This document shows, one piece after another, positions 9,666-64,000 of a stretch of DNA of 64,000 nucleotides. This DNA comes from Apostichopus japonicus. Taxonomy: Eukaryota; Echinodermata; Holothuroidea; Aspidochirotida; Stichopodidae. Within the stretch, counting starts at the first letter, position 1. Each line of letters starts with the position of its first letter. The translations under genes were made by a program, and so were the position numbers. The stretch lies in assembly GCF_037975245.1 (NCBI RefSeq), contig NC_092580.1, positions 34,257,001 to 34,321,000 of the forward strand. The letters are read 5' to 3'. The notes beneath the pieces were generated by a model, which was not told the origin of the DNA, did not search any database, and saw nothing but the letters and a program-made list of their open reading frames with translations.

Positions 9666-10560
9666 ATTGATCCAAACAACACGCGGACAGCATGACTTTG
9701 TAACATAGTTCATACTTCATAGGTCCAAACAGCACGCGGACAGCATGACTTTGTAACATAGTTCATACTTCATTGGTCCAAACAACACGCGGACAGCATG
9801 ACTTTGTAACATAGTTCATACTCCATTGGTCCAAACAACACGCGGACAGCATGACTTTGTAACATAGTTCATACTCCATTGGTCCAAACAGCACGCGGAC
9901 AGCATGACTTTGTACCATAGTTCATACTTCATTGGTCCAAAAAAAAAACGCGGACAGCATGACTTTGTAACATAGTTCATACTTCATTGGTCCAAACAAC
10001 ACGCGGGCAGCATGACTTTGTAACATAGTTCATAGTTCATTGGTCCAAACAACACGCGGACAGCATGACTTTGTAACATAGTTCATACTCCATTAGTCCA
10101 AACAGCACGCGGACAGCATGACTTTGTAACATAGTTCATACTTCATTGGTCCAAAAAAAAAAACGCGGACAGCATGACTTTGTAACATAGTTCATACTTC
10201 ATTGGTCCAAACAACACGCGGACAGCATGACTTTGTAACATAGTTCATACTTCATTGGTCCCAAAAAAAACGCGGACAGCATGACTTTGTAACATAGTTC
10301 ATACTCCATTGGTCCAAACAGCACGCGGACAGCATGACTTTGTAACATAGTTCATACTTCATTGGTCCAAAAAAAAAAACGCGGACAGCATGACTTTGTA
10401 ACATAGTTCATAGTTCATCGGTCCAAACAGCACGCGGACAGCATTACTTTGTAACATAGTTCATACTTCGTAGATCCAACCGACACGCGAACAGAATAAC
10501 TTTGTAACATAGTTCATACTTCATTGGTCAACAAAAAACGCGGACAGCATGACTTTGTAA
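9666..10560 (+). repeat. Minisatellite, ~53-bp unit, ~17 copies
   Basis: The units carry CGCGGACAGCATGACTTTGT followed by AACATAGTTCATACTTCATTGG. Most are 53 bp. Several replace the segment before ACGCGG with a run of A of varying length (8 to 11), which changes the period. Edge copies (first, last three) are the most diverged. Confidence 0.95.
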
Positions 10561-20053: not shown

Positions 20054-20251
20054 CACAAGTCTTCTGTATTTATCTTTCAAATCAATACCAGTTCTCCCCT
20101 TTTTGAAGTGATATGTCCACAAGATAGCATTCCAGTGCTTGCCATGACGTTTAACCCCCTTCATGAGATTACGGATCTCTCCTTCGCTGAAGTCCTGCCT
20201 CTGCCTCCTTGTTGTGTCCTTAATTTTCCTCTGTAGAAGTTTCTTTGGTAG
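20054..20251 (-). CDS. TERB1: TERB1 exon h (C-terminal Myb-like domain)
   Basis: 198 bp. The acceptor is TTTTATGATCAG (AG at 20253-20252), giving L-P-K-K-L-L-Q-R-K. The donor is GTGAGT after R-R-L-V. The Myb-like domain spans D-F-S-E-G-E-I to D-K-Y-R-R-L, with G-K-H-W-N-A-I-L-W and K-K-G-R-T as in vertebrate TERB1. If the donor is not used, the frame continues about 40 codons to a stop at 19943-19945, an alternative C-terminus. The last exon was not located. Confidence 0.9.
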
Positions 20252-32200: not shown

Positions 32201-35200
32201 TGTGAGAGGTTTTATTAACACTGTGGGAGTTTATGACTCTTATCATCCACACAACACTGCCCTCAATGGCTTACACATGCACATACATATACACCCACAA
32301 ATTATGGTGGATTATATTTTTTATCATTGTACTGGAAATTTTTTAAAGTATTCCACAGTTCTAGGGGCTTTGTGTAGTCATGTATTGGGTTTTATGGTTT
32401 ATTATATTATTTAATTCTGTGGATAAGTTCAAGTAAACAGAATTATTAATATATGATATCATTTTGAGTCTTGCAAATTTTGGCATAAATACATGATGTC
32501 TTGTTGTACATGGAATGCGCTTTTCTCTATATAAAACTTTATAAAGTTGTATAGTTAATCTAGTAGCCAAGCTAACATTGGTCCTCTTAACTAAGGAATT
32601 TACAGCATATTGAAGGAGATATCAAGAATTACATTTCAAAAGGAAAGTGACTCCCTTTGCAAAAACTAAGCACAGTGAAAGGACAGCCCACACATTTCCC
32701 CCTTCTATGGGTGTACATAATTAGAACATGCTATCTTTGTTTGAAAAGCAAACATGGACATGAAATTTCAACTGTATTAATGTGGAATATTTTAGTGTCT
32801 TCGAAACAGAATATCCCTTCGAGGGGATGGAAAAAATAAGTTGGCATTTTTTCTATAATTATAAGCTATTTTGTAGTCCTGAGGAAATTACGATTCTTAT
32901 ACCATTGTACAGTAATATTTAATCCTTTTTTAGCTTTTCTTTCAAATTATGAAAGACACTGGTCCCTGAGCTTCTTCTTCTCAGCACCATCAAAGTAACC
33001 TAGAAGTGATGAGATTGGTTAATTATAAGCCTCAAAATGGAAGTGATGAGGATGGTTAAATAAACCCTCAGCTTAAAAGTGATGAGGTTGGTTAATTAAA
33101 GCCTCAGTCTGGAAATGATGAGGTTGGTTAATTATAGTCTCAGCCTAAAAGTGATGAGGTTGGTTAAACAAACCAAAAGTGATGTGGTTGGTTAATTAAA
33201 GTCTCAGCCTAAAGGTGATGAGGTTGGTTAATTAAACCCTCGGCTTGGGAGTGATGAGGTTGGTAAATAAGCCTTGGCTTGGAAGTGATGAGTTGGTTTA
33301 TTAAAGCCTCAGCCTAGAAGGTTTGTTTATTAAAGCCTCAGCCAACAAGTGATGAGGTTGGTAAATTAAAGCCTTGGCTGGAAGGGATGAGGTTGGTTAA
33401 AAAAACCAAAAGTGATGTGGTTGGTTAATTAGAGTCTCAGCCTAAAGGTGATGAGGTTGGTTAATTAAACCCTCAGCTTGGGAGTGATGAGGTTGGTAAA
33501 TAAAGCCTCGGCTTGGAAGTGATGAGTTGGTTTATTAAAGCCTCAGCCTAGAAGTGGTGAGGTTTGTTTATTAGTGGTGAGGTTTGTTAACTTATATGCT
33601 ACAATAAAGTTTGAACTAGCACATAACAGAGTAATCAGCAAATTGTTGATTTACTGATATTATGACTAGTTAACATAAACTATAATTGCACCTTTTGGAT
33701 AACAAGGAAAGTATTCTCACTGGTCATCTATATAAGACACTAGTATTTACTGGAGACAATCTACACTACTTATTAGAAGATCTTGTGGAAGGTGTAGCAT
33801 GGCAATGTAATATTTCATCAATGAAATCCAATTGGTCCATTGCCATACATCCACAGTATGTACAGATACCATATTTAAGATTTTAACTATGAAACTATGT
33901 AAAAACTATGTAAAGTCAAATATTAACTAGTATATTAATGTTGACGGAACCTTACTCACACACAAAAAGGATTACCATTTCTCAGGTTTGATATGACATG
34001 TTCAATACTTACCAATGGTATCTCACATTTATCTACAGTAAATGCTTGTTGAAGTTTCTCATCTTCTGAGAAGCTGTAAACATCACAATTCCCTTGAGAT
34101 GAAATATTTTTCTTAGAACCTGCAGAGAGAGGGAGGGAGGGAGGAAGGGGAAATATTTATAAAGCAGAAGAAAACAAAGAGCTTACACAATAAACTTTGA
34201 GGAAGAAAGGTACCTTGAATTTAGACAAACTAAGGATTTTCACATCTCACTTCCTGATATTGCATCAAATCACTATTAACTTAGGCACCTGGTTAAGTTT
34301 CATGACTAAGCTAATATAGCCCACTTCCCATCCGATTCACTGGGCAAGTAAATATCAATGGACTTGGTATTATGTGACATTATTAAACATATATCAGATG
34401 TGGCAGACAAAGTATCTACATTATATGTGTACTGTGTGCTTTACTATATCTGCATGGGATGCACATTCCTTTCCTAAAAGTCCACTTCTCCCTCATGCAC
34501 CCTCCCTCTCTCTGTGGTAAATATCATTAATATTCAACTGCAGTTAATTCAAGCAAGCAAAAGGTGTTTCCTGAACAAACAAAATTGTAAATTGTACATT
34601 TTCAAGAAATATCTACGCTACAGTACAACGATGCCAGGATAGCCCATAAAATAAAATATGAGGAAATACCCTGCCAGAGTTCAAGCTGCCCATATCAGAA
34701 AAGGAAGGTTTTCTACACTACATACAGTACAAGATGCCAGGATAGCCGATACCCTAATATGAGGAAATACCCTGACAGAGTTCAAGCTGCCCATATTAGA
34801 GAAGGTAGGTTTTCTACGCTACAGTACAACGATGCCAGGATAGCCTATACAATCAAAATATGAGGAAATACCCTGACAGAGTTCAAGCTGCCCATATTAG
34901 AGAAGGAAGGTTTTCTACGCTACATTACAACGATGCCAGGATAGCCGATACCCTAAATATGAGGAAATACCCTGACAGAGTTCCAGCTGCCCATATCAGA
35001 GAAGGAAGGTTTTCTACGCTACATTACAACGATGCCAGGATAGCCGATACCCTAAATATGAGGAAATACCCTGACAGAGTTCAAGCTGCCCATATCAGAG
35101 AAGGAAGGTGTTCTACGCTACAATACAACGATGCCAGGAAAGCTGATACCATAAATATGAGGAAATACCCTGACACAGTTCAAGCTGCCCATTATAGAGA

Positions 35201-38200
35201 AGGAAGTTTTCTACGCTACAATACAACGATGCCAGGATAGCCGATACCCTAAATATGAGGAAATACCCTGACAGAGTTCAAGCTGCCCATATTAGAGAAG
35301 GAAGGTTTTCTATGCTACATTACAACGATGCCAGGATAGCCAATACCCTAAATATGAGTAAATACCCTGTGTCACGAGTATGCTTGACGCAAGTCTAACG
35401 ACTATCGTGCAGCTGGATAAATTTACTGATGAATATTCATTTGTCTGTTTTGCTCACGAAGTTCAAATTAGTAACATACGACATTCTAGTATATGCTTTG
35501 TTTAATTCACTGATTGCTCGACGGGCATCAATGGAATTTGTGCAAGTCTTTGTTTAGATTAATTTGCATAAAATGCAGGTAAAGGGTCGGTATGAATAGG
35601 CCGGGTAAGCAGGTCAGGGCGTGGTAGTCGTGTTTGGTATAGTATACTTTGTGCAAGGGTGCTGGGTGCACCACAGCAGTCACTTGTTGCAGTTGGACAC
35701 GATGTCCGTTGGGCGACATTATAGCCCGCTGTACTTCGCTATTCTAATATAGTATATGTAGGGGCAACTTCAGTTCCCCGCTGATGAATTCGTGGCAATA
35801 TATATCTTGTCATATATCGTAAAGGACATACCCATACGTGTAAAAAGCCGGAAACTGACCGAATTCCGGTTTTGCCCCTGGTAACGAGGACCAAATAAAG
35901 CTTATACAAAAGACCCACGCCATCCGAGTATTTACCTTGTCCAGTCGAATAGTTTTACCATACCCGTGACACCCTGACAGAGTTCAAGCTGCCCATATTA
36001 GAGAAGGTAGGATTTCTACGCTACAGTACAACGATGCCAGGATAGCCTATACAATCACAATATGAGGAAATACCCTGACAGAGTTCAAGCTGCCCATATT
36101 AGAGAAGGAAGGTTTTCTACGCTACAATACAACGATGCCAGGATAGCCGATACCCTAAATATGAGGAAATACCCTGACAGAGTTCAAGCTGCCCATATTA
36201 GAGAAGGAAGGTTTTCTACGCTACAATACAACGATGCCAGGATAGCCGATACCCTAAATATGAGGAAATACCCTGACAGAGTTCAAGCTGCCCATATTAG
36301 AGAAGGAAGGTTTTATACACTACAGAACAAAGATGCCAGGATAGCCGATACCCTAAATATGAGGAAATACCCTGACAGAGTTCCAGCTGCCCATATGAGA
36401 GAAGGAAGGTTTTCTACGCTACAATACAACGATGCCAGGATAGCCGATTCAATCAAATATGAGGAAATACCCTGACAGAGTTCCAGCTGCCCATATCAGA
36501 GAAGGAAGGTGTTCTACGCTACAGTACAACGATGCCAGGATAGCCGATTCAATCAAATATGAGGAAATACCCTGACAGAGTTCAAGCTGCCCATATTAGA
36601 GAAGGAAGTTTTTCTACGCTACAATACAACGATGCCAGGAAAGCCGATACCCTAAATATGAGGAAATACCCTGACAGAGTTCAAGCTGCCCATATTAGAG
36701 AAGGAAGTTTTCTACGCTACAATACAACGATGCCAGGATAGCCGATACCCTAAATATGAGGAAATACCCTGACAGAGTTCAAGCTGCCCATATTAGAGAA
36801 GGAAGGTTTTCTACGCTACATTACAACGATGCCAGTATAGCCGATACAATCAAAATATGAGGAAATACCCTGACAGAGTTCAAGCTGCCCATATTAGAGA
36901 AGGAAGGTTTTCTACGCTACATTACAACGATGCCAGGATAGCCGATACCCTAAATATGAGGAAATACCCTGACAGAGTTCAAGCTGCCCATATTAGAGAA
37001 GGAAGGTTTTCTACGCTACAATACAACGATGCCAGTATAGCCGATACAATCAAATATGAGGAAATACCCTGACAGAGTTCAAGCTGCCCATATTAGAGAA
37101 GGAAGGTTTTCTACGCTACAATACAACGATGCCAGTATAGCCGATACAATCAAATATGAGGAAATACCCTGACAGAGTTCCAGCTGCCCATATTAGAGAA
37201 GGAAGGTTTTCTACACTACAATACGATGCCAGGATAGCCGATACCCCAAATATGAGGAAATACCCTGACAGAGTTCAAGCTGCCCATATTAGAGAAGGAA
37301 GGTTTTCTACGCTACATTACAACGATGCCAGGATAGCCGATACCCCAAATATGAGGAAATACCCTGACAGAGTTCAAGCTGCCCATATTAGAGAAGGAAG
37401 GTTTTCTACGCTACATTACATCGATGCCAGGATAGCCGATACAATCAAATATGAGGAAATACCCTGACAGAGTTCAAGCTGCCCATATTAGAGAAGGAAG
37501 GTTTTCTACGCTACAATACAACGATGCCAGGATAGCCAATACAATCAAATATGAGGAAATACCCTGACAGAGTTCAAGCTGCCCATATTAGAGAAGGAAG
37601 GTTTTCTACGCTACAATACAACGATGCCAGTATAGCCGATACAATCAAATATGAGGAAATACCCTGACAGGGTTCCAGCTGCCCATATTAGAGAAGGAAG
37701 GTTTTCTACGCTACAATACAACGATGCCAGTATAGCCGATACAATCAAATATGAGGAAATACCCTGACAGGGTTCCAGCTGCCCATATTAGAGAAGGAAG
37801 GTTTTCTACGCTACAATACAACGATGCCAGTATAGCCGATACAATCAAATATGAGGAAATACCCTGACAGGGTTCCAGCTGCCCATATTAGAGAAGGAAG
37901 GTTTTCTACGCTACAATACAACGATGCCAGGATAGCCGATACAATCAAATATGAGGAAATACCCTGACAGAGTTCAAGCTGCCCATATTAGAGAAGGAAG
38001 GTTTTCTACGCTACAATACAACGATGCCAGTATAGCCGATACAATCAAATATGAGGAAATACCCTGACAGGGTTCCAGCTGCCCATATTAGAGAAGGAAG
38101 GTTTTCTACGCTACAATACAACGATGCCAGTATAGCCGATACAATCAAATATGAGGAAATACCCTGACAGGGTTCCAGCTGCCCATATTAGAGAAGGAAG

Positions 38201-41200
38201 GTTTTCTACGCTACAATACAACGATGCCAGTATAGCCGATACAATCAAATATGAGGAAATACCCTGACAGGGTTCCAGCTGCCCATATTAGAGAAGGAAG
38301 GTTTTCTACGCTACAATACAACGATGCCAGTATAGCCGATACAATCAAATATGAGGAAATACCCTGACAGGGTTCCAGCTGCCCATATTAGAGAAGGAAG
38401 GTTTTCTACGCTACATTACAACGATGCCAGTATAGCCGATACAATCAAATATGAGGAAATACCCTGACAGAGTTCCAGCTGCCCATATTAGAGAAGGAAG
38501 GTTTTCTACGCTACATTACAACGATGCCAGGATAGCCGATACCCTAAATATGAGGAAATACCCTGACAGAGTTCAAGCTGCCCATATTAGAGAAGGAAGG
38601 TTTTCTACGCTACATTACAACGATGCCAGGATAGCCGATACCCTAAATATGAGGAAATACCCTGACAGAGTTCAAGCTGCCCATATTAGAGAAGGAAGGT
38701 TTTCTACGCTACATTACATCGATGCCAGGATAGCCAATACCCTAAATATGAGGAAATACCCTGACAGAGTTCCAGCTGCCCATATTAGAGAAGGAAGGTT
38801 TTCTACACTACAATACAACGATGCCAGTATAGCCGATACAATCAAATATGAGGAAATACCCTGACAGGGTTCCAGCTGCCCATATTAGAGAAGGAAGGTT
38901 TTCTACGCTACATTACAACGATGCCAGGATAGCCGATACCCTAAATATGAGGAAATACCCTGACAGAGTTCAAGCTGCCCATATTAGAGAAGGAAGGTTT
39001 TCTACACTACAATACAATGATGCCAGTATATAGCCGATACAATCAAATATGAGGAAATACCCTGACAGGGTTCCAGCTGCCCATATTAGAGAAGGAAGGT
39101 TTTCTACGCTACAATACAATGCCAGGATAGCCGATACCCTAAATATGAGGAAATACCCTGACAGAGTTCAAGCTGCCCATATTAGAGAAGGAAGGTTTTC
39201 CTTTGAGGTAGTTGTAAGTTGTTTAAAGGCAGTTCAATTAAGTCGCATCATTTCAAAGAAAGAGCCATACATGCTGGAAATTTAAGACCATTATAATTGG
39301 CACAATGTATGACATATTCAATGCATTTAATAAATTTGCTTGGCAGTACAAAATCATCACTTGTAAGATGCCAAGCAGTTATGATATGGTGTGTTTTGTT
39401 GCCTTTTGTTGTAAGCAAGAAATTATTATTTTCTGGCATATATGTTTTCCATTAGCAGCCATCAAATGACATCTTGTATTATGATTCTGTATATTGTTAT
39501 TTTCTCCTTGTATGTATTAAACTACTTCCAACTAAACAATATTGTATGAAACCCAATACATGACTACACTAAGCCCTTAATTAGAACTGTGGAATACTTT
39601 AAAATTTACAACTACCATCTTATACCCATCTAATGAATAATAAATTAAACCATGCATCAATAGCCTCACTCTTATATTTAAACTTGTGGTTTTAGAAGAA
39701 CTTTTTCATCCCTAACAGCGCACAGAAGCAATGAATTCCTTAATTTCCACATGCATTTAGCTGCATTAGTAGTGCTGTAGAAACACATATTGTTAAATAC
39801 ATATAATGCCATGGGATGCTATTTGCAAAACACTTAAAGGAGCCTGTTGTGTGGTGTAATTGCAACTACCTATTAGGCATAGTCTAATTCCCACCACATC
39901 CACTCATCTGAAGTACAGATGCCATGTTCCATACAAATGCAATGAAGTAGAAATTCTCACCATACAAGTGCAATTAGATTGTAATTAGCCTTTATCAATT
40001 AATGGCTAAACCATCTTTCTATTAAAGGTTTCTAAGATGTATGCTTACACCCACACACACATATTGTGCAGTTAGCTAGCCTACAAAAGGAACTAAAATG
40101 TGCATGTAAGCCTGACACTGCAAACCATTTATTTTTTACATGTACTGTTATGTCTTATCTTTAGTTGCATGTCAAATAGATATACAAGATTATGTTAACC
40201 ATTTGCTCAACTTAAATAACCATGGAAAGTAGCTACTAAGTTTCAGGTTGGAACATATTATGAAATTTGCATACAAATATTTTGGAAATTGGGACAAAAT
40301 TTGCATAGCATGAGATTTTTTGGCAGATTGACCTTCAGAGCTAATAGAGGGGTGATTGATTCTAAGATGTGTATATATGTTGATTTATCACCTCAACCAT
40401 CAACCAATTGTGCTACTTCCCTGTTGAAGATTTAAGTGTGTTCAGAAACAACTACTCTAACATGAACTACGCACTATACTTTCATTGCACTATTATGAGA
40501 GTAAAACGTGAGAGAATCTGAGACTTGAGGACTAGCTGCCACAATCACTTCTCACATCTTGCATGCAAAGAGATTAGATCACTTAATGAGGCACATTTAT
40601 TAATCTGAATTATTAAATGAACCATTTGATAAGTTGATATATCTCATAACTATAGCATAGATCTGCCCTGATGATATTTGAAAAACTGCTTTTAGATAAT
40701 TAACATCAGGTTGGAGATGTCATGTATTCTCACATGAAACTTAAAACAGGATGAAAACACATCAGCAATAATGAATGCTTCATGTTATACATTGATGGCT
40801 TGTAATGGATTGTTTACATGATCCTTCCATCAATGCATGGGTTTGAAGTTAAGTGTATTCATTGTGTAGAACTATAGAACTTAATTACCCACAACCACTG
40901 TTAAACAAACCAGCTACATCTAGTCAATTTTGAATTTCCAATTCACCTTTTAAATGAAGAAAAAAAAGTAAATCTAAATTCCTTATGGAATAAGGAAAAA
41001 TCAAAACTGATAATGCTTATCTATAAAACCCAGCCAACTTAAATTTGCTGTCTACTTATTGTGAGCTTTGGCCATGCACTTGCACAATAACTTAATTTAG
41101 GGATATTATCATGATTGGAAGTTGATTGCTTAAAGACATGCTGTGAATTTTCTGCATCTTGTCAAACCAAATCTTCTTCATGGTCCTTTGCACCAAAGAG

Positions 41201-44200: not shown

Positions 44201-47200
44201 AACTTTACACAAAATCTGCAGACTGTGGTAGAATGACCTCAAACATTGTTAGAGCCATTTGAACAAAACATGTGGATTCTACATTCTAGTACTTTATAGT
44301 CCTAAAACATAGGAAGCAAGGTTTGGAAGCAAGCAACAAAAAAATAATATGTTTAATAACTTTAATTACAGATGCAAAGTGGACTGCTAATAAATTATAT
44401 TCAATATCCATCTTGAGCTATGCTTTCTTACTTCATCAAAAGACATTCCTACCTGCCAAAAATGATGATAAATTGTCTTTGCAATAAACAATGTTATTAA
44501 AAAGCCTTGTGATTTGTTTTCCCTGTGTACCATTAATAATGCTTGGTCTTTCCAAATTATAAAAAATATAGGCACCCTTTGATTATGCATGGCTTCAAAC
44601 TAATAGACACTGTCAGGTAGTTTCCTTTCTCAGCTACTAGCCTTTCACTGACTAGTCTAACATTTAGCTTAAAGGAGCAGACTGGTGTGAATTTGGTAAC
44701 TGCTAAGGAGAAGGACTGCACTAGCAGGTGAAAGTGTAATAATTCATAAAGTATTTTAAATTAACTTACATGGTAATGATGTCAGTGGTAAACACTGCAT
44801 GATTCAAGTCTCAGAACATGTTTGCCAAATTTAAACTTCAACCTTTCCAGCTTACTGCACTAAAAGCTCAGTAAAAACGACACCTGTGACCTTGCTATGC
44901 AATTTTCATATAAATATTCATTATTTTTATTGAGTTATCTGTCGTTAAAAATTTGAGCTGAATAAAATTCGCCAGATTTTTTAATGAGTCCGTAGATTCT
45001 ACAAACTACAATCAAAATTTGAAAGCCCCTGCCTAACAGAGATCAAATCAAATCTATCTGTTTTGTTTACTGTTATGCTTAGGCCTACTTTCACTTTTGT
45101 GGCTAGCATATCTTAGGTCCCTTCTCTTGACAGTTGAAGTATCTTTCTCTCGGTCTTACCGAGGTAGCTTGCGAAATTGTGTCATTTCCTTCCATTGCAA
45201 TGAATAAAAAGGTTAATTCAGACGTTTCCTCCGTGTAATTGTAAAAAGTGGACGATACGAATAGGACTGCGTTAAAGTCTTGATTGGGCCACATGTGTAG
45301 ACTATTTATGAACAGCTGATCCGGATGAATATACAACATGTTGACATGGGCGGTCGCAGTGATTGTATGGTAAATTGTTCGCGCCATAAGGGTAACAGAA
45401 TAAACATTTCTTTCTTTCGATTGCAACAGCTTTTCTCCATTAAACCCACCTGGTCCGAGTGCATTTAGAATAAGAAATATTGAACCTACTTCGCAAGTTT
45501 GTTTCCAATATTCATCAGCAAACAGGTATTGAGACTTTAAAACCTATGACTGGCATCAATTTGCTTCTAAGTTCTGATGTAAGTTTTCAGAAACTTTATT
45601 TCATTTCCTCCTCTTACAATAATCTTATTACTTCCTAACACAAGCTGCAAAGAAGTTGTTGTAAAATCCATGTGTATACATGTGTGTTACAGTATATATC
45701 TTGACCACATTTTTTATTTTGGGGGTTTATTTATGCATGTACACACAGTAGTAAACTTAATATTACCTGGACATTCTAATGTCAACAGCTCACATCTACT
45801 GGATAACTCTGAAATAGAAGCAAATGTGAAAATTATTGTCATGTATTTGTAGCTTCAAGATTTGAGTGATTCACTTCACATACTTGTTCATGTGTATAAA
45901 GTCTATAAACCTTCATTTAAATGTCAGATAATTATACTGTCACATCTATCCACTACTATGAATATTCAAGGTTTGTTTTTGATGACTACTATTGTCTTTA
46001 GTCAAGAAGAATGTTTACTATGGAAACCAAGCCATATAGTCAAACAATCATTACAATAAGCTACCCATGATGCAACAAGCAAAACAGCAAAAGTACACTT
46101 AGACACTGATATTCTTTCAACAGCAAGCTTTGAATATGAAAGTAATCTATCTTTTCTACAATTATTCAGAAGCACCTAAGTTTACAGACCTTCACTTTCT
46201 AATCCATCTCCGCCTCTTTCGTTTGGTTTCGGTACTAATGTGGACTTCCTGCTCTTCACTCTCCTATGGACCATTTCATCTTTGGTAGACAGTTCAGTAT
46301 TAGATAGCTCATTAGTACTGTGAATTACAGAATATTCAATGTTTTTATCAATTCCATTCCTACTAGTGTCCTCCTCCTTGTCTTCTTGTCTCCATCCAGC
46401 AAGGCAAGAATCATCGACGATATCTGAGCAGCTTTTCTGTGTTTCATTACATTTTATGCCTTCTGTCTTTGATCCTGTCACACACTTTTTGAGACAATGT
46501 TTACAATAGACATCACCTTTCTCATTAACAGGCTCAGTTTGATTAATAACAGATCCATCCGCTGCCTTCACCAGGACTGAGTTTGTATCTTCGTCTCTCA
46601 TTCTCACAGCCTGTCTGTCTTCATTGTCACGCATTACCTGTTTGTTCACCAAATCATTTCTAATCTGAGAGCTCTCTCCACACGTAATGGGCCTTTTCTC
46701 TTCACAACTTTCCTGTCTTCCACTGGTTTCATTTATTTCTCTGGTAATAATATCTCCCTTGTCTGTATAACTCTCTGCTACATTATTGTTAGTAGATGTA
46801 CCTCTATTGGCTTCCTCTTCATCATTTCTGTTGACATCTTCACTCGCTGAGACATCTTTCTTTGTTACATCAATTGTTGAGACATCTTTCTTTGTTACAT
46901 CAATTGTTGAGACATCTTTCTTTGTTACATCAATTGTTGAGACATCTTTCTTTGTTACATCAATTGTTGAGACATCTTTCTTTGTTACATCAATTGTTGA
47001 GACATCTTTCTTTGTTACATCTGCTTGTTTCCTTGAGTAAACATAATCCAGCACTTTGTCAAACTTATCTTCAAAACTTTCAAGCTTTTGGTGGATATCT
47101 CCATAGCCAGTACTAACTGTATTAACCTGTGATCCAAAAACATAGTACCATACAATGAAATTACAGCGACTTCCAACTTTTCATAACAACATATAAACAC

Positions 47201-48246
47201 TGAACCAAACTTAGAATTGAATAGCATTGTCAAACTTCATGCACTTTGAAATATAGTTCAATCATTCTTGACTGTATAGAAGCTAGGCAAACAATTCATA
47301 GAAATGTGTGCAGACATCACCCTTCATGTCAGGTGACAATACATAATTTATACGGAATGATCTAAACATTTATGGGGATTAAAGGGAAAGTTGAACAACA
47401 TCACTGTAACCAAGAAAATCCTCAACAAGTTGAAGACAGGGAAGCGCATATCGGGTTTGTGTAACCTATGTTTGGAATAAAAGCTGGAAATCCTGTGCTT
47501 AAAGGGTGAAACAGTCAATAAGAGAACCGAGCTCATATCAGCATGTCACCATGGTAACAAACCCAAGCCACCCAACTGTAGTTCATGGAGAGTAGGTCCT
47601 GGAAATCCTGTGCTTAAAGGGTGATACAGTCAATTAGAGAACCAAGCTCATTTTTCGGTAGTGCACTCTACTCTACATCATCATTAGCCGTATCCACATT
47701 TACCACCTTAACTCTGGACCTACTCTCCATGAACTACTCGAGGAAGAATATACCAGTAATCCTAGATCTAGGCACTGGCACCTTCCAGCCATACAGAAAA
47801 CCAAATAACCAACCCTATACATTAACCGCTTGTCTAACCACCCCTCTAGCGATATGAAACAACATCCCCCAAGTCATCAAAAATACAATTTACTCCCTGT
47901 GCTCCGACAAATATGTCCTCGATAAGGCCGCCCTCACCTATGGCAAAGCGCTAAATCAGCGGGGTACACCGACAGTCTTGATCAATACGGTGAAGCATAA
48001 CCAACCAAGGCAACGGAAAAACCAGCAAAGCAAAATCATTTGGTTCAACCCTCCTTTCAGTACAAACGTCAAAACAAAGTTGGCTCTACTTACCTCAAGA
48101 GCATTCGACAAGCACTTCCCGCCATGACACACCTTACATAAGATCTTCAAATTGGATACTATGAAGATCAGTTACAGATCAGCTATACATATATATATTA
48201 TATATATATATACATATTATATATACATATATATATATACATATAC

Positions 48247-48298
<52 letters not shown>

Positions 48299-50657: not shown

Positions 50658-50704
<47 letters not shown>

Positions 50705-53700
50705 TATATATCATATAGTCTACCTATACAGTAACTTACAGCATGAAACTCGAGTAACAGGAAGGGCAAATGTCAAAGTTTCCCATAATTGTCAAGCAAA
50801 GACTGTCATATTGTCATTGATGATAGCCAGTCATGCAATAGCTACAGGACTCGTTAAGTCACATGAAGGCTAAAACAAGGAAAGCAACACAGCAATGACC
50901 TCTATTTAGTTCATGTGTCTACCAAAGTTTACATTTCTGGGAATACTCAATTTAAGTGATAATTTCTACTTCTGATGAAAAGAGACAGTTAGTGTCGTGA
51001 GTCATATAAATGAAAGAGCACACACCAAGATGTATAAACAGCCCCACGTAACATATAAAATTTGTAGCTGCTGTTAGTACTGTAGGTGACAGATAGAAAC
51101 AGGGACACTATCACTGTATAATGTAGAGAATGATTAAAAATTACAACCATCACACTGTTATAGGACAGAGGTGCTTTTGTAATACAAGAGACAATAAGGG
51201 GTTAATCAATGGTCTAAACGGTGTGTTTATCACAGGATAATGCACAAATAGGAGTATAATGGAAGCATTGAATCATACACGAGGACTATGGCCAAGTGCA
51301 TCCAACAATAGCATCATAATCCCTTCATTCCTACAAACGCTAAATAAACATCAACTTTTTATCTCAGAATGCTACAATTTAATGAAATGTTAAAAGAAAA
51401 ATAACCAACAATTGTCTTATAACTGTAGTTTCCCCTAGTTCTTTACTTTTATTATAGTGTAAGGTCTCGAAACAACGTAAATGAATCAATAAATAACAAG
51501 AATGACAGTAATAGGCTATGTATATACCTAGTAAATTGAATAACACTACGTTATGCTATGGAAGGTATTTGATCAGAAGGAAATATGGGTGAACCAGGAC
51601 TTGCAATGTTTACTTTCTTTTGGAATATGACATTTACTGATCCTTGAAACATGTATTTCATGAATACATTTGCTGTTGTATTCCATTTACATTTACATTC
51701 AGTGCTGTGTGAAACATGTATCTCTTGAATAAATTTGCTGTTGTATTCCATCTACATTTACTGTTCCTTGAAACATGTATTTCTTGAATACATTTGCTAT
51801 GGTATTCCCAATCATTATAGATGCCATTGCCTAACGGTTAGGCATATATCGTTAGATGTTATGTGTGTTAATATCGACAATGGTGCTCTGACATTGGCTA
51901 GTCAATTCTTGTGTACTTATAACTGTCTATTGTTGGATTGATTGTTTGGATCGATGCTCTCAGGACATTTGAACATTGCTTCTTTTTGCTGATTTGAAGT
52001 GTCCAATTACTTCTGATACAAATGCTTATTTGTTTTGATGGCTACTTAACAGCATTACAGTTAACATTAACAACATTAGCACTGGATTGGAAGCTGGCAT
52101 TGCTAAACAAGGTTTTCTTTGTTGCTTGTATGCTATGGTTAGTATACTTCATGCTGGAAGCTAGCTTTCTCGGAAGTGTTGGTCATCATCTTGCCAAGGG
52201 GTGATGATACTGAGGGACTTGCTGCCATACTATACTTGATCTGATTCATTTGCTTTGATTTAGCTTAGTTGAGCTTAAGCCGCTAGTTGGGATTAAGCTT
52301 GCCGAGATGCTAGTTTTTGCAACTGATATTCATTCGTCGGTAAGTTTGCTGTGCATTATCCCTGGTTAATGAACGGTCAGCTGACAACAAGCCAATCAGA
52401 TTCAAGGGTTTCTAAAGTATGAATTAATGAACATTAATTGCTACAAAAGTCATAAAATTGGTACTACACAGACTTTCCACTCATTATTAATACATTTGCA
52501 GGATCTGAGAAAAGATCTAAGACGAATGGAAACAAAAGCGATATATGCTGAGGCCATCCATTTTACACATCATTTCTAGAACCCTCTGTGCTCCCATTCA
52601 CACCCACTTACCCCTGTCCACCCCAACCCTCACCCCCCTCCCCCTTCCACACTCAATAGGATTTCAGCAATGGCTGCAATAAACATTGTGATAATTGTGA
52701 ATACTGCAATATTTAGATGAAACTTACATCAGATGTATCATCAGTAGGTTCAATGTCATTCAAAGGAAGGGAGCTAACTTCTGCTTCAACTCTCTTGATC
52801 CTCTCATCAGTCTGATTAGACACAAGATGCAGAAGCCTTGTGAGGGGATTTGTGTCTTGAATATTCTGATCTAAACAACTGAGCTTCTCTGATTGCAGAG
52901 AGTTATTCCAAGTGTTCAACTCATCTGAATTAAGTCCTTCTATTACACATCTTTGATAAGGTTGTTGAGTTTTTGGATTTACTCTTAATAGTGAGTTTTT
53001 GCTTGCTCCAAGTATTTCTTGGAACTGTTTCAATGGATGATCAAATGCAGTGGGCTTGACAAAGACATCAGCTTTGCTTTGGTTCACCGTACTATCCAAT
53101 GCTGGGGTGTTTGAGTAAAGCATGTCTTCCGCCCCAAGAGCAGTTACTGTTGAAAAGAAAGCAATAAGCTGAAATGGAGATTGAAGACAACATGACAGAG
53201 TTCACTGAAACCTTTATAGTTTACTGTTCAAGGTATGTAGAAAAAACATGACTGAGAATTAGTTGTAGAAATAATTATGAAATATGTCAAAACGTATGGA
53301 AATGTTATGAGTCAACTATCTGTTTGCACTTGAATGCTCTTCAGTTGTTAAGTCTCAACTTCAAGTTACAGTGCAATATTGACTCACCCCACCGAAGACA
53401 AGACTCCAAAACTGATGAAATGGTCTTCCTCATTTCATTATCATCTTGATTCTGAAGCAATATCTGAACCAACAGAGCCAGTCCATCACTCCTAACTAGT
53501 TGCTTCTGACTAAGCTCTGTCACAAAGAAAACATCCAAGAAAGAGAATGGATTCATTAATGGTAATATCTCATAACAGTAAATAACAATTGATTACAATA
53601 ACCTGACCATGTCCACAATGTAGTTATAATGACAAGTAAGGGAGCAGAGGTGACTATACTACTAGAATGTAATAAGTACCAATTCATTAGCATATTGATG

Positions 53701-59700: not shown

Positions 59701-62700
59701 TACCAACCTACACATCTCTCCTACAGTAGGCCTATACATATTGGTGTTCTGCGCACCAACCAACACATCTCTCCTACAGTATGTTTATTGGTGTTCTGTT
59801 CACCAACCTACTCATCTCTCCTACAGCGTACATATTGGTGTTCTGTTCACCAATACACATCTCTCCTACGTGTATATTTTGGTGTTCTCTTCACCAACCT
59901 ACACCTCTCTCCTACAGTGTATATATTGCTGTTCTGTTCACGAACCTACACATCTCTCCTACAGTGTATATATTGGTGATCTGTTCACCAACCTACACAT
60001 CTCTCCTACGTGTATATTTTGGTGTTCTCTTCACCAACCTACACCTCTCTCTTACAGTGTATATATTGCTGTTCTGTTCACGAACTTACACCTCTCTCCT
60101 ACAGTGTATATATATTGGTGTTTTGCTTTTATTGGTGTCAGACTTCCTCTGACAAAATATACTAAATTATATCAATATAAGAATTTTCTTCCAACCCCTG
60201 TATATCATCAAACTCACAATGATGAGAAGGGAATTATTCTATATCGCCTCTACTCCTCGCTCCCTCCCTCCATTCCCTGCCTCCGTGGCATTATATTTCT
60301 CCATGAATCAACAGTGCCTACCTGATGATTGTGTTACAGAGGACATTGTCAGGATTATCTTCAGCTTTACTTCATTTGTGAGTACCTCTGAAGACAAAAG
60401 CTGCACCAACAGAGGAATCAATCTTAGTTCTGTCAATATTTCACAATTGCTCTCTGTAATATGAAGAGAAGTTGACAATTAATTAATATCATTTGAAGGT
60501 TGTTTTTAACATGTTTCACATGACAACTTACGACCAGAACAATTTGGCATATATGTACATACGCTAACGTGGAAGACATTTGTATAATTGATAACACAGG
60601 GTACTTTGAACTATAAATTTGATTCCTTTTGCATTTTTCTTCCACTTTTTGTAACTCTTTTAGGATATGAGTGACAACAAGTTTTCCCATAATCTTCCCA
60701 GTTCTCGCATGATACAGAGTGTGTCATGTTTATGCCATAAATCAGCAATTCAGAGAACTATTACTCACCATTGAAGTGATTTGTCATAAAAATAAAAAAA
60801 AACTAGTAAACTTCCAGGCTGTAAAGCTTCATTAAAGAAGAAGATGAATCCATCAAACAAGAAGATTACCGAGTAATCTCGAGAGTAAATTGATTTTATG
60901 TGAAGACAGTTAAAACTATTCATTTTCAGATATCACAACCATTATCTCTTAATTTAGAAAAGTGATAACTATGGCAAGTTTGAACTAATTGTACATCATC
61001 GCTGCTTAATAGGTGATAAAAAGAAAAATAAAGTCTTTCATTACCATCTAATAAGCTTCCAAATAGGGTTCAATATCTCTGAAATTGTTAAATCTTCAGC
61101 ATCTGCATGAATGAGTAGCCCTGGGCAATCAACAAATTTGGAGAACAATGGATATACTTAATGCACTCACTAGCTGACCTGACTATTTATAGATAATTAC
61201 AGATTTACTTTTTTATTACATGAGCCTTCACTTTGCACTGAACCACTCATCGATTGCGCTTGTTTGCTTCAGTTCTTGTCTTTTAATGGACTTTTTTGTC
61301 TTTGCTAGGGCTGTGGGAATGGAGGATTGGGAGCTAAAATTTATTGCCAAGTATCCACTATAAGAAATCAGACAATTCTGGAAAAGACTGAAACTGTTCT
61401 GGATTGAGCTGTGTTGTCATAGATTAAATGTAATCATGAATGTTCTGAGAATCACATTAATCATTAATTAATTGGTATAAAAATGGCATTGATTGCTTTA
61501 AAAAAATGAATTGACATCAAACCTGGCAAGTATGTTAAAAACATAACAAACACACATGGCTCAATAGATGGACGTTTTGGGAGCAGTTGAAGCCATCAGT
61601 GTTCCTAGAAATTACTTTTAACAGAAACTATCACTGGAAAATAATTTCTAAATATATTTCAATGCATCCAATTTGGGTTTAATGTCACTAACACCTTTCA
61701 CTGACCGCTTCATACATTTGTACCATGCAGTGAAATGGACAAATTAAATGAACTAAAAGCAAAATTGTTTTTCAACAGATTTTTATGGATTAAAGCCACT
61801 ATACGTAAAGAAAATTGAAAACAATTTTAATGAAAAATTCATAGCAGAGATAGAATCTGATCGATGTAGCAATTTGGTATTTGGTTGCAACAGGTACTTC
61901 ACTGAGGTGGGAATGAATCAAGAACAGAGAGATTCTTTAATTAGAAATGATTGTATCATCTAAAACTGTTGAGAATGCATCATCATGAATTCTATCTTTA
62001 GTAATAAAATATTGTTTCAACTGTTAAGACCAGGGTCATTGGCCACATACTGGATCTTGAAAACCTCACAGAATGAGTAAAAAACCGTATAACCAGGTTG
62101 ATGGATGAGCTGAAAAACTTTATCTTAATGTATGTGAATGTAAAGTAGTGGACTTGGTTTATGAAACTATAAAACAACTAGAAATAATTGCAAACTTGGC
62201 AAACTTCCAGAGCTCTTCATAACAACGGAGCTGTCTATAAAATTATACTCATTGTGTAAGTGTATCTTATAGCATCATACCTTTCCTGCTGCTGAGAGTG
62301 CCGTACTACTCCCCCCCACCCACCCCCCCCCCGCAAATTAAATAAACAGTCATCCAGATCCAGGGTATTTTATTGATAGGTCTTTAAGATAATGCCCAGA
62401 CACAATTGTGCGTACACACCAAGATATGTGTAGTAATAACACTGCAGAGTACAGCTGGCATCATAAGTTGCAATGTATAGATTAAAAGAGCACTCAAGTA
62501 ATAACAGCTTCCAGAAATCTCTGCTTATTTATATACTACACAAGATGAACATTCGATTTTGAAGTTCCAACAACTGAGTCTGATTTAAAATTTACTGCAT
62601 GCTGACTACACCAGAATTTAAATTTCCTCTTTACAAGAAGTTTTCTAAGTTATCTCAACATTTCTTAACGGGTAATAAAGTATGAAAGACATAATATCAT

Positions 62701-64000
62701 AGAATATTAGCTTACTATGGTCAGTGGCTGCGACACCCAAGGTGGTAACAAGTCCTGTTATAACAGTCATTTTCTGCTTGTCTGGGACTTTGATAAATGA
62801 TTGCACCAAATCTTGCAACGCAGAAATAATTACATCCAGTCCTCCAAGGATTCCTAATCGGGTTTGGTTTGCTGCTGGAAAATAGGAGAGAAAAGAAGAA
62901 AAGTTTACTTTGCATCTTCCATAAAAAGTGGATTTATAAACGAATAATACAGTTAACTACGATAGAGAAGGAAAATTAATTTGCAATAGCATGTTTGCTA
63001 AGGAATCAAACGTAATGCATTTTGAATAACCTCTGGATTAAAGTATCGCAGTCATCTCATGGTCAACGTTTGTGTTAAAGTACATTAAGTTGTTTGCATT
63101 TCTATAGGTTACTTCCTGATCAGTTTAAAAGCAATGAAATGGTGGTAGCGGCATCTGAGGTCTTCTCCAGTCAAACTAATTTCTGTCTTGATAAATATTG
63201 GCAAACCGCTGCAGCCATGTGCCAATCAATGTCTGCTATCAACAATTGTGAGAGTCTTAAAGACATTTCTGCACTTTGAATAATAATAATCATGATAAAT
63301 AAGTTCTTAATATAGCCCCAAATACCAAAAGGCCTCTAGGCGCTTTACAAAACCTAAAACAAATCAAAAAATCTAAAAGACAGAGAAATCAAAGGAATAA
63401 AAAAGTCTAGAGAATACATAAACAAAAATTAAACAGTATGTAAAATAAGAACACAAAAATCTAAAAACACAAGAAGACTATAAAACAGACCAAAACCTTT
63501 AAAAAACAAAACAAGGCTTTGCTACTTTCAAGCTTTCCCTAAACCCCTAAATGTAAGTCTTTCATTTCCACAAGGTACTTCAGCCCAACAGTTTATGAAG
63601 ACAGTATCACATTATCTATTAATTTCTGGTGGAAACAAATAATCATGCGGCGTCATTTGCAACTCTTGCTAGAACGTTCACAGTATTATGATTCCACATG
63701 TAACATCCCCACCCCACCATTCGCTTCTCCTCAGACACCCTTGAACATATTAACACAATTAATACAGAAACATAGATACATATATGTAAAGTATGGTCTA
63801 GTTAAAGCTCAGCCACTTGTATCATTGAGATTTGAGACTTTTCTGCTCTAAAATGCTTATTTTATGCTCTTGTAATTTGAAATTTGTCATATTTTCAGAG
63901 CATGGTCTCCACTCTCTCTCTCTCTCTGTACTAACCATTATTGCTGACAGTCAATGAAAGTAAGGAAGACACCTGCTGTAGTACTACCCCATTATCAGTC
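20054..64000 (-). CDS. TERB1: Telomere repeats-binding bouquet formation protein 1 (TERB1), partial gene, 8 exons visible
   Basis: The meiosis-specific protein that, with TERB2 and MAJIN, fixes telomeres to the inner nuclear membrane and links them to the SUN-KASH machinery. Exons found: 63936-64000 (cut by the window), 62716-62874, 60322-60453, 53388-53516, 52728-53146, 46190-47126, 34013-34119 and 20054-20251, about 2146 bp (715 residues). Every junction has AG/GT and matching phase. The first four exons encode armadillo-type helices (L-T-V-S-N-N-A-N-Q-T-R-L-G-I-L-G-G-L-D-V-I across the first junction) that align well with vertebrate TERB1. Next comes a long linker, then a C-terminal Myb-like domain whose motif G-V-K-R-H-G-K-H-W-N-A-I-L-W matches the vertebrate protein at most positions. 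The N-terminal exons are outside the window. No alternative family combines this ARM and Myb order. Confidence 0.87.
21595..21925 (+). mobile_element. Dispersed transposon-module copy with G/C-rich right end
   Basis: It starts near CAGACGCCTTGCGAGGAATT and matches 48500-48657 (CAGGCGTGTAGCGAGTAATT) through the ~150-bp module, then continues like 50206-50260. The right side alternates GGGGGG and CCCCCC hairpin-like runs and stops near CGCCGCCCATG. A precise target duplication was not found. Confidence 0.6.
23185..23530 (+). mobile_element. tRNA-derived SINE (family 1), diverged copy
   Basis: A degenerate tRNA-like head (TTGGTTAGGGTGTCCGCA ... AAGTTCCAATCCC) is followed by the same tail as the 26.2-kb copy: CTGTTCTGGATTT, AACAGAGTCTGTTCAAAGTA and TTGATCTCTAGAGTAAGGCA. 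Confidence 0.75.
23888..23900 (+). promoter_or_regulatory. DR1-like nuclear-receptor half-site pair
   Basis: GGGTCA-A-AGGTCA matches a DR1 consensus, with further AGGTCA half-sites nearby. It is intronic and may simply be part of a repeat; no functional claim. Confidence 0.25.
24446..24562 (+). repeat. Tandem duplication, ~61-bp unit, 2 copies
   Basis: ATTTATTTGGTATTCATACT followed by GGATCCTTGTYAGGAAGTTG and AACTTTGACCAAA occurs twice back to back with few differences. Confidence 0.85.
26060..26560 (+). mobile_element. tRNA-derived SINE (family 1), tandem-like arrangement
   Basis: The best-preserved tRNA-like head is at 26243-26316: A box TAGCCTAGTGGTTAGGATGT and B box GGTTCAAATCC. The family tail follows to 26560. 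A second copy of the tail (26060-26200) lies upstream of the head, so at least two insertions are abutted. It is not a functional tRNA gene because it is embedded in the repeat. Confidence 0.8.
30314..30640 (+). repeat. Tandem duplication, ~164-bp unit, 2 copies
   Basis: CTAAAACATTCCAATAAACA through GATTTAATTTTCCTTCACAC is repeated almost identically (copy 2 begins near 30478), with small differences around AATAGTCTGG/AATAGTATAG. Confidence 0.9.
32995..33595 (+). repeat. Degenerate minisatellite, ~36-bp unit, ~16 copies
   Basis: Units combine AGTGATGAGGTTGGTTAATT with AAAGCCTCAGCCTAGA. Sub-blocks are themselves repeated (33170-33330 resembles 33400-33560), indicating block duplication. Confidence 0.9.
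34013..34119 (-). CDS. TERB1: TERB1 exon g (pre-Myb exon)
   Basis: 107 bp between acceptor TCTCTCTGCAG and donor GTAAGT. Only one frame is open; it reads S-K-K-N-I-S-S-Q-G-N-C and ends K-C-E-I-P-L in phase 0. Phase fits both neighbours exactly. It is short and poorly conserved, so the call rests on splice sites and phase. Confidence 0.75.
34612..39200 (+). repeat. Satellite array, 99/100-bp unit, ~40 copies
   Basis: The unit contains AATATGAGGAAATACCCTGA, AAGCTGCCCATATTAGAGAA and ACAACGATGCCAGGATAGCC. Units ending CCCTAAATATG are 99 bp and keep a plus-strand frame open (repeats of MRKYPDRVQAAHIREGRF...). Units ending CAATCAAATATG are 100 bp and break that frame. From about 37560 to 38460 the array is strictly 100-bp periodic and very homogeneous. 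It is interrupted by an LTR at 35370-35971. It is treated as non-coding satellite within the TERB1 intron. Confidence 0.95.
35370..35971. mobile_element. Solo LTR (Ty3/Gypsy-like), 602 bp, 5-bp TSD
   Basis: It begins TGTCACGAGTATG and ends CATACCCGTGACA, an imperfect inverted repeat with TG...CA ends, and is flanked by CCCTG at 35365-35369 and 35972-35976. The duplicated CCCTG is part of the satellite unit, so the empty site can be read directly. An AATAAAG lies at about 35895 in a position suitable for a plus-strand LTR poly(A) signal. There is no internal retroelement sequence, so it is a recombined solo LTR. The superfamily is inferred from termini and TSD length only. Confidence 0.85.
42605..42660 (+). 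repeat. TGGA/TGGG tetranucleotide simple repeat
   Basis: An imperfect (TGGN)n run of about 55 bp. Confidence 0.8.
43590..43870 (+). mobile_element. Dispersed repeat (family R47), diverged copy
   Basis: It shares ordered blocks with 54415-54715 and 59535-59760: GACCAAATTCGTG-type block, CAGATTGCATTGTAA, TACCCTCAA, GGTATCACA, and CCCTACATATCCCTACTATA near the right end. Class is unknown; no coding sequence is visible. Confidence 0.6.
45103..45465 (-). other. Unexplained open reading frame inside a TERB1 intron
   Basis: The minus-strand frame is open for about 120 codons and ends at TAG (45103). It has higher GC than its surroundings and mixed residues (for example H-I-T-A-T-A-H-V-N-M-like and F-N-A-V-L-F-V-S-S-T-F). 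A possible acceptor (CTCGGACCAG) precedes it near 45455. I recognise no domain. It could be an exon of an unknown nested gene, a retrocopy fragment or chance. Confidence 0.3.
46190..47126 (-). CDS. TERB1: TERB1 exon f (large linker exon with in-frame minisatellite)
   Basis: 937 bp. The acceptor is TTGGATCACAG. The donor is GTCTGT (46189-46184), chosen because its phase fits the next exon. A slightly later GTAAAC donor would not fit. It starts V-N-T-V-S-T-G-Y-G-D-I with a short coiled-coil-like helix. Then come five full and one partial copies of DVTKKDVSTI (30-bp DNA unit, 46850-47025). The acidic, low-complexity remainder holds a Y-C-K-H-C-L-K-K-C cysteine cluster, possibly equivalent to the vertebrate Y-R-C-S-G-C stretch near the TERB2-binding part. 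No stop occurs before the donor. Confidence 0.85.
46850..47025 (-). repeat. In-frame 30-bp coding minisatellite in TERB1, ~5.8 copies
   Basis: The copies are essentially identical at DNA level (GAGACATCTTTCTTTGTTAC plus ATCAATTGTT on the plus strand). Each encodes DVTKKDVSTI on the minus strand. The perfect conservation suggests recent expansion. Confidence 0.95.
47580..47736. repeat. 19-bp inverted repeat with an adjacent ~50-bp direct repeat
   Basis: GTTCATGGAGAGTAGGTCC (47580-47598) is the exact inverse of GGACCTACTCTCCATGAAC (47718-47736). GAAATCCTGTGCTTAAAGGG plus following sequence occurs at about 47487 and again at about 47599. Confidence 0.85.
47655..48185 (+). pseudogene. Penelope-like retroelement remnant (C-terminal part of RT/linker)
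   Basis: One frame reads D-L-G-T-G-T-F-Q-P-Y-R-K-P-N-N, then after TGA (47855) N-I-P-Q-V-I-K-N, I-I-W-F-N-P-P-F-S-T-N-V-K-T, F-D-K-H-F-P-P, TGA (about 48124), L-H-K-I-F and M-K-I-S-Y. This order is characteristic of the region before the GIY-YIG part in widespread marine invertebrate Penelope-like or related retroelements. Two in-frame stops and the missing catalytic RT motifs mark it as dead. It runs into a TA microsatellite. Assignment is by remembered motif order. Confidence 0.6.
48184..48330 (+). repeat. TA/ATAC-type microsatellite
   Basis: Nearly pure (TA)n with interspersed TATACA and TACTGTA. It generates spurious Tyr/Ile open frames on both strands. Confidence 0.95.
48500..48657 (+). 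mobile_element. Left part of dispersed module element, split by a hAT insertion
   Basis: It starts CAGGCGTGTAGCGAGTAATT, contains the shared module and breaks off at CCTTGTAAG (48657). The expected continuation TTGCATCTAAGCATT... resumes at 50214, exactly after the insertion. Confidence 0.8.
48658..50205. mobile_element. Non-autonomous hAT transposon, 1548 bp, 8-bp TSD, nested in an older repeat
   Basis: The ends are CAGGGTTCGA and TCGAACACTG (9 of 10 bases inverted-complementary). The flanks are CTTGTAAG at 48650-48657 and 50206-50213, fitting the hAT target preference NTNNNNAN. The interior has no transposase. It holds short palindromic blocks: an ATTGCATAGCAA type near 48690-48770, and ATCGGTATCGGCCGATAT near 48870-48950. 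A weak tRNA B-box-like GGTTAGAACCCC lies at about 49409. Removing it restores a continuous host repeat. Confidence 0.9.
50214..50445 (+). mobile_element. Right part of the split dispersed element
   Basis: It continues the 48500-48657 copy (TTGCATCTAAGCATT..., GAAATTACTAGAGATGTCAT), then a G8 to C5 hairpin-like segment (50274-50294) and ends near CCTTGATCTGTCACTG, a hAT-like terminus on the minus strand. Flanking 8-mers do not match, so the outer boundaries are uncertain. Confidence 0.6.
50460..50660. repeat. Pyrimidine-rich tract with GC-rich palindrome
   Basis: About 150 bp of CT-rich, T/C homopolymer-like sequence is followed by GGGGGGCGCGCCCCC near 50619. On the minus strand, CAGGTGCGTATCCAGGGGGG looks like another hAT-type end, but its partner was not found. 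Confidence 0.5.
50659..50712 (+). repeat. TA microsatellite
   Basis: (TA)n of about 50 bp. Confidence 0.95.
51630..51825 (+). repeat. Direct repeat, ~60-70-bp unit, 3 copies
   Basis: GAAACATGTATTTCATGAAT (variants TCTCTTGAAT, TTCTTGAAT) followed by ACATTTGCTGTTGTATTCCA occurs three times. Confidence 0.85.
52728..53146 (-). CDS. TERB1: TERB1 exon e (linker)
   Basis: 419 bp. The acceptor is TTTTCAACAG and the donor is GTAAGT, ending phase 0 at T-S-D. It begins T-A-L-G-A-E-D-M-L. The rest is a polar, probably disordered linker followed by a heptad-like segment (D-E-R-I-K-R-V-E-A-E-V). Confidence 0.85.
53388..53516 (-). CDS. TERB1: TERB1 exon d (armadillo repeat)
   Basis: 129 bp. The acceptor is TTTGTGACAG and the donor is GTGAGT. 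It reads L-S-Q-K-Q-L-V-R-S-D-G-L-A-L-L-V-Q, ending V-L-E-S-C-L-R-W. It resembles the last vertebrate TERB1 armadillo repeat (L-F-K-N-N-G-L-P-L-M-I-Q). Confidence 0.87.
53762..54135. mobile_element. 374-bp MITE related to the 12.7-kb element, 8-bp TSD
   Basis: The ends are CATAGAAGTAGGAG and CTCCTACCCCTATG (imperfect inverted repeat). The flanks are AATAGAGC at 53754-53761 and 54136-54143. It has subterminal GCCCGAA motifs (near 53810, 54049 and 54071) and G/C runs just inside the ends, as in the 12697-13724 element. There is no coding sequence. Confidence 0.87.
54415..54715 (+). mobile_element. Dispersed repeat (family R47), copy
   Basis: Same block order as 43590-43870 and 59535-59760, ending with a single CTACACATCTCTCCTACAGT plus GTACATATTGGTCATTC unit that is tandemly amplified at 59.7-60.1 kb. 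The open frame across it is not a gene. Confidence 0.65.
56025..56312 (-). mobile_element. tRNA-derived SINE (family 2)
   Basis: On the minus strand, the head has A box TGTGGTCAAGTGGTTAAGGC and B box GGTTTGAATCC (56225-56310). A tRNA-unrelated body follows (GCCCAGGCGTGTACATGGGA, CCCCGGGGGACACAGAGATG). The open frame across it is not a gene. Confidence 0.78.
56550..57020 (+). repeat. Tandem duplication, ~300-bp period, 2 copies
   Basis: CTTGAGAAACTTCCTAATGA ... GATAGCAC...GACATTAAGG ... ATCAAGCATTT, a G-rich patch and GCTGGACxGTAT occur in the same order at about 56570-56745 and 56855-57020, diverged in the G-rich patch. Confidence 0.85.
57191..58428. mobile_element. Non-autonomous hAT transposon, 1238 bp, 8-bp TSD
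   Basis: It begins CAGGCTTGGGG and ends CCCCAAGCCTG (exact inverse), flanked by TTTAAATG at 57183-57190 and 58429-58436. Both ends carry dense subterminal GTAATCGTAATCGATTAC repeats (57205-57350 and 58285-58410) in both orientations, as expected for transposase-binding arrays. The interior has one small frame (58024-58254) without a recognisable transposase domain. Confidence 0.92.
59535..59690 (+). mobile_element. Dispersed repeat (family R47), copy adjoining a minisatellite
   Basis: The left and middle blocks match 54415-54660 (GTCCTCTATTCAGA, GACCAATTTCTTT, CAAATTGCATTACAACTAA). It then passes into the 47-bp array. Confidence 0.6.
59691..60123 (+). repeat. Minisatellite, ~47-bp unit, ~9 copies
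   Basis: The units are TTGGTGTTCTGTTCACCAAC plus CTACACATCTCTCCTACAGT and GTATATA. Some copies lack ACA after CTCCTAC. Each carries a CTCTCCTACAG motif that resembles a plus-strand splice acceptor. It leaves overlapping open frames that I do not call genes. Confidence 0.93.
60322..60453 (-). CDS. TERB1: TERB1 exon c (armadillo repeat)
   Basis: 132 bp between acceptor ATATTACAG and donor GTAGGC. It reads S-N-C-E-I-L-T-E-L-R-L-I-P-L-L-V-Q-L-L, the next helical repeat. Phase 2/1, like its neighbours. Confidence 0.86.
60454..62715 (-). other. TERB1 intron (2.3 kb) between exons b and c
   Basis: AT-rich, with a C run at about 62309-62332. No repeat family or gene recognised. Confidence 0.55.
62716..62874 (-). 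CDS. TERB1: TERB1 exon b (armadillo repeat)
   Basis: 159 bp. The acceptor is TTTTCCAG and the donor is GTAAGC. The frame reads N-Q-T-R-L-G-I-L-G-G-L-D-V-I-I-S-A-L, an armadillo helix pair matching the vertebrate V-G-G-L-D-V-L segment. It starts with 2 leftover bases and ends with 1. Confidence 0.87.
62875..63935 (-). other. TERB1 intron (1.1 kb) between exons a and b
   Basis: It contains a short dispersed motif at about 63310-63350 (CTCTAGGCGCTTTACAAAA) of the kind often found at the ends of marine invertebrate repeats. A CT run at 63914-63927 adjoins the exon a donor. Nothing else recognised. Confidence 0.5.
63936..64000 (-). CDS. TERB1: TERB1 exon a (partial, armadillo region)
   Basis: Encodes about 21 residues ending ...L-S-L-T-V-S-N-N, then G and donor GTTAGT (63935-63930). 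The leftover base plus CA from the next exon gives Ala. The 5' part lies beyond 64000. Confidence 0.75.

Follow-up and report, generated by a model that had tools for sequence, protein, structure and literature searches.

The minus strand of the window (the whole stretch of DNA analysed, 64,000 nucleotides) very probably carries the C-terminal part, perhaps three quarters, of an invertebrate TERB1 gene, as judged from its sequence. Eight exons (A to H, Table 1), each flanked by AG and GT, extended from position 62874 to 20054 and together formed a stop-free frame of 2210 or 2216 bases, which encodes 736 or 738 residues. The case for this gene model rests on the homology of separate pieces (ARM-type repeats, TERB2-binding (T2B) segment and Myb domain), on their vertebrate order, on their location on one strand and on compatible phases. 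Identification as TERB1 had already been put forward in a preliminary description of the same DNA, and was supported here by the Myb exon, the T2B exon, the armadillo match and the order of the parts. The gene is a further member of a known family and, in kind, an ordinary orthologue; it seems, however, to have retained features of telomere contact that are absent from mice and humans or were thought to be restricted to vertebrates.

Gene model and splice sites

The preliminary description had announced eight exons with consensus splice sites and matching phases in a complete-looking gene, without exon coordinates. Eight exons, presumably those meant, were recovered, the total length fitted, AG and GT were present at all of them and phases agreed at seven of the seven junctions of the joined model; completeness did not stand (see below). 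Two sites were chosen among alternatives to fit the phase, namely the acceptor of exon D (53146, not 53168) and the donor of exon E, so that the seven agreements do not amount to seven independent tests. The consensus character of the sites held for the AG and GT dinucleotides but not beyond them at the acceptor of exon H (20251, scoring -1.1 by a simple site score), at the donor of exon A (62716, below 2 as deduced from its absence in the candidate lists) and at the two possible donors of exon E, both non-consensus (GTGAAG and GTCTGT).

A blind splice-plus-codon score delivered 88 candidates (31 non-overlapping, both strands) and did not single out the eight exons. Three of them were found in rows of their own (ranks 14, 15 and 29), two were overlapped by variants, and three fell below the site cut-offs (the exons with acceptors at 62874 and 20251, and the full long exon E, a shorter form of which ranked 18). 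This score was trained on two intronless neighbour genes, both located within CpG-rich DNA, and the training set may therefore be unsuitable.

The intron following exon E contains an open frame of 146 residues (45103-45543, minus strand), located in a 1-kb bin with a somewhat raised CpG ratio (0.52). It was considered as an additional linker exon and rejected: nothing scored above a Pfam cut-off, and the phase of its best form (45449-45160) did not fit exon F.

Table 1. Coordinates of the TERB1-like gene and associated features in the window
Feature	Positions	Strand	Evidence and remarks
Exon A, ARM-type repeat	62716..62874	-	Splice contexts; phase 1 in and out; ARM match of joined exons
Exon B, ARM-type repeat	60322..60453	-	Phases; joined ARM match; Pfam Arm 14.2 bits (cut-off 20.6)
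Exon C, ARM-type repeat	53388..53516	-	Phases; ARM match of joined exons
Exon D, linker, possible coiled coil	52728..53146	-	Phases; Pfam coiled-coil match, but weak (18.2 bits against a cut-off of 60)
Exon E, long linker	46196..47126 (donor 46196 or 46190, each weak and of phase 1)	-	
30-base in-frame minisatellite in exon E	46848..47021		5.8 identical copies; DVTKKDVSTI repeats, 5 exact peptide copies
Exon F, T2B segment	41651..41785	-	Human T2B match; counterparts of C618 and H621
Exon G, with CEIPL at its end (opening half of IxLxP form)	34013..34119	-	Acceptor 10.0, donor 4.4 (GTAAGT)
Exon H, with LPKK at its start (closing half of IPLLP), followed by the Myb domain	20054..20251	-	1x58 match; donor GTGAGT
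3' end of TERB1 transcript	16000..20053	-	Probable; from CpG change point

ARM exons and linker

The ARM query was composed of 149 residues (exons A to C and the first ten residues of D). It retrieved 12 different sequences from PDB up to E=10, of which the first eight were designed armadillo constructs, with E-values from 1.8e-7 (best) to 9.8e-5 (worst of the eight); the reversed query gave no match up to E=10. Taken alone, none of the stretches making up this match was significant (best 0.42). The Pfam Arm score of the query (14.2 bits) remained below its cut-off of 20.6, and two unrelated families scored above Arm while staying below their own cut-offs (FNIP_M, 14.6 bits; Cortexillin coil, 18.2 bits).

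The linker had been called expanded, and this was supported: about 450 residues (positions 140-591) separate the last ARM exon from T2B, against about 200 in mouse, where the ARM region extends to residue 384 and T2B begins at 593 (PMC7227075). The linker is about twice as long as in mouse and human TERB1 and, in contrast to these, contains a perfect 30-base coding repeat accounting for about 58 of its residues, which is probably a recent in-frame expansion. Exon E displayed no Pfam match up to E=1. Coagulation factor IX, to which all seven of its PDB matches belonged, was dismissed as chance (E 1.5-3.4).

T2B exon

The T2B query consisted of the first 48 residues of a piece of human TERB1, which agree with the T2B segment of PDB 6j07_B. 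Among the 3533 ORFs of the window (six frames, at least 12 residues), the best match was 41646-41855 on the minus strand (E=0.036), followed by one at E=1.1. In the reverse search of exon F against PDB, 6j07_B came first of two matches (E=0.18). None of 5000 shuffles attained the local score of 54, their maximum being 49, and the second-best ORF had a score of 42. Both E-values (0.036 and 0.18) are marginal, but place, strand and phase are right.

Human T2B binds zinc through C592, C595, C618 and H621 (PMC6361898). A cysteine and a histidine of exon F align with C618 and H621, so that two of the four human ligands were aligned; C592 and C595 lack a clear counterpart, two adjacent cysteines standing at the matching place instead of CxxC, and the sole CxxC of the protein, at 487, precedes the T2B exon by about 105 residues. 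The predicted structure of exon F was poor (mean pLDDT 69.9) and displayed one long helix, as opposed to the helix-turn-helix of human T2B.

IPLLP motif

Exon G ends with CEIPL and exon H starts with LPKK, and the spliced protein consequently reads IPLLPKK between T2B and Myb, at the site where human TERB1 displays ILLTP. No other [IFY]xLxP occurs in the 738 residues. Among 200000 shuffled linkers, IxLxP appeared in 1.0 % and [IFY]xLxP in 2.3 %; the ORFs of the window contained 0.014 and 0.041 of these forms, respectively, per 56 residues. The motif is formed only if splicing uses the acceptor at 20251, the first AG for 46 bases; it would be lost with the alternative at 20230, which scores almost as high (-1.4), or with that at 20242. 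Compared with mouse and human TERB1, about 27 extra residues separate T2B from the IxLxP form, and the position of the human phospho-site T648 is occupied by leucine instead of threonine.

The analysis of PMC7227075 did not find the IxLxP TRF1-docking motif outside vertebrates. Binding to TRF1 is at least 100-fold weaker for the short peptide of the motif than for the wider region (PMC6297230), and the motif alone need therefore not suffice.

Myb exon

Exon H matched 25 PDB chains up to E=10. The best was 1x58 (54.3 bits, E=6.1e-14), the structure of the mouse TERB1 MYB domain (PMC8867601), and TRF1 came next with 24.5 bits. Pfam PF00249 was matched with 30.3 bits (cut-off 24.4). The predicted structure of exon H was poor (mean pLDDT 58.4). 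A scan of viral contigs and genome contigs with the Myb exon returned no relative. In local alignments, 25 of 49 residues were identical to mouse TERB1 and 20 of 47 to human TRF1, while mouse TERB1 and human TRF1 shared 14 of 44; the Myb domain looks less derived than that of mouse TERB1.

The third helix reads IDLKDKYRRL, with the lysine, aspartate and arginine contacts all as in TRF1 (LKDRWR), and nearly matches the telobox VDLKDKWRT (consensus VxxKDxxR, PMC6175992). The three residues, critical for major-groove binding in TRF1 and TRF2, are replaced by Ala, His and His in TERB1 (PMC8867601). According to the same source, the human and mouse TERB1 MYB domains do not bind telomeric DNA, and restoring the three residues still gave no evidence of binding. 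Since the contacts of TRF1/2 are kept here, unlike in human and mouse TERB1, this Myb domain may itself read telomeric DNA.

CpG distribution and ends of the gene

The CpG observed/expected ratio per kb was 0.59-1.13 in the first 16 kb; over the remaining 48 kb it was 0.07-0.57, with the exception of eight 1-kb bins (21, 35-38 and 48-50; 0.58-0.99). Bins 35-38 correspond to a minisatellite, and bins 48 and 50 contain TA and other tandem repeats; no tandem repeat was listed for bins 21 and 49. A change-point test over 0-21 kb placed a step from 0.84 to 0.27 at position 16000, with a log-likelihood of 31.4 compared to a maximum of 11.1 among 1000 bin shuffles. This fall probably marks the border of a transcription unit that is methylated; on the simplest interpretation, the TERB1 transcript extends down to about 16 kb. 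Low CpG from 16 to 64 kb, the eight bins excepted, fits with one transcription unit. Such a CpG mosaic is expected of invertebrate gene-body methylation and not of a vertebrate genome; it supports, short of proof, the invertebrate origin announced for the gene.

The gene was open at both ends, and the description of it as complete-looking had to be abandoned: the model lacks a start codon, the initial ARM exons and a terminal exon. A search for further internal exons upstream, over 63970-62900 (acceptor score at least 0, donor at least 1, length at least 45 bases), yielded none whose exit phase fitted. Exon H ends GTG/GTGAGT directly past the Myb core, which is why at least one further exon is expected. 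Below 20054 no convincing terminal exon was encountered; three acceptors in 20053-15500 scored at least 4, one of them followed by an immediate stop.

Neighbourhood

Two intronless genes were detected in the first 8 kb of the window. The first (207-1643, minus strand) encodes a GT10 fucosyltransferase (PF00852, 157.8 bits; FUT9 structure 8d0o, E=6.7e-26). The second (6344-7633, plus strand) encodes a class A GPCR (7tm_1, 92.5 bits), whose nearest solved structures were, weakly, the histamine H1 and alpha-1A adrenergic receptors. A 53-base tandem array occupied 9666-10562 (16.8 copies, with a higher-order period of 216 bases). The intron between exons F and G harbored two arrays of units of about 100 bases, at 34612-35369 (7.6 copies) and 35971-39200 (32.5 copies), with CpG ratios of 0.58-0.83 over the bins of 35-38 kb. 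Rfam gave no match at gathering scores.

Alternative explanations

The exons could be split between two adjacent genes, with A-D or A-E in an unrelated ARM-repeat gene and F-H in a TERB1 or TRF-like gene. The ARM assignment is indeed general rather than specific to TERB1, and exon E displayed no family match; but all exons lie on the same strand and in the right order, phases are compatible through D-E-F and the region is CpG-poor throughout, bar the eight bins, which makes this division unlikely. Less probable still is a decayed TERB1 pseudogene. Weak sites at the Myb-exon acceptor and the exon E donors would agree with decay, as would the minisatellites in and around exons, whereas 736-738 codons free of stops and frame shifts, a conserved Myb core and a coding repeat with a period divisible by three all speak against it.

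The lysine, aspartate and arginine contacts would also be accounted for if the Myb exon came from a TRF (TERF) gene, since the KDxxR core of the telobox is kept (I-x-x-K-D-x-x-R here, VxxKDxxR in TRF1/TRF2) and 20 of 47 residues are identical to human TRF1. This was judged the least probable of the three, and very improbable: overall, the Myb domain is much closer to TERB1 (about 30 bits better to the mouse protein than to TRF1), T2B and ARM exons lie upstream of it, and Pfam scans of the visible exons revealed no TRFH domain.

Comparison with known TERB1 and possible function

Mouse and human TERB1 (CCDC79) share with the present gene the order of ARM-type repeats, T2B, IxLxP form and C-terminal Myb domain; they differ from it in the third Myb helix, where they display A, H and H in place of K, D and R. 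The family was published as distributed across Metazoa, including, among invertebrates, mollusc, annelid, brachiopod, echinoderm, Hydra and sponge (PMC7227075). Likened by description only, these invertebrate proteins have the ARM and Myb architecture in common with the present one; on the same descriptive basis they differ at the motif, IPLLP being present here while that paper reports no IxLxP outside vertebrates. Among the literature matches listed, no title or opening of an abstract mentioned an invertebrate TERB1 with K, D and R contacts or with IxLxP.

The ARM region of TERB1 connects telomeres with SUN1, and T2B connects them with TERB2-MAJIN at the inner nuclear membrane (PMC7227075, PMC6361898). 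By homology with the mouse and human proteins, the ARM region would face SUN1 of the LINC complex and T2B would bind TERB2, partner of the membrane protein MAJIN, while IPLLP would serve for docking to a telomere protein of the TRF type, and the Myb domain would act at telomeric chromatin. Telomeres would in this manner be attached to the nuclear envelope, and cytoskeletal force would move the chromosomes during meiotic prophase. Attachment to the telomere may be twofold in this copy, combining docking to a TRF-type protein with direct reading of DNA. That this TERB1 both docks a TRF-type protein via IPLLP and binds telomeric DNA via its telobox Myb is a tentative proposal, to which we attach rather low confidence. 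If true, TRF docking would predate vertebrates, the TERB1 Myb domain would have lost DNA reading later, on the way to mammals, and docking would operate here without a phosphorylation switch at the T648 position.

Many of the invertebrates sequenced to date may share IPLLP and the K, D and R contacts. If both features hold in other invertebrates, the view that TERB1 has no TRF1-docking motif outside vertebrates, as given in the analysis of PMC7227075, would be revised, and the loss of telomere contacts by the TERB1 Myb domain, as described for human and mouse in PMC8867601, would be limited in its extent.
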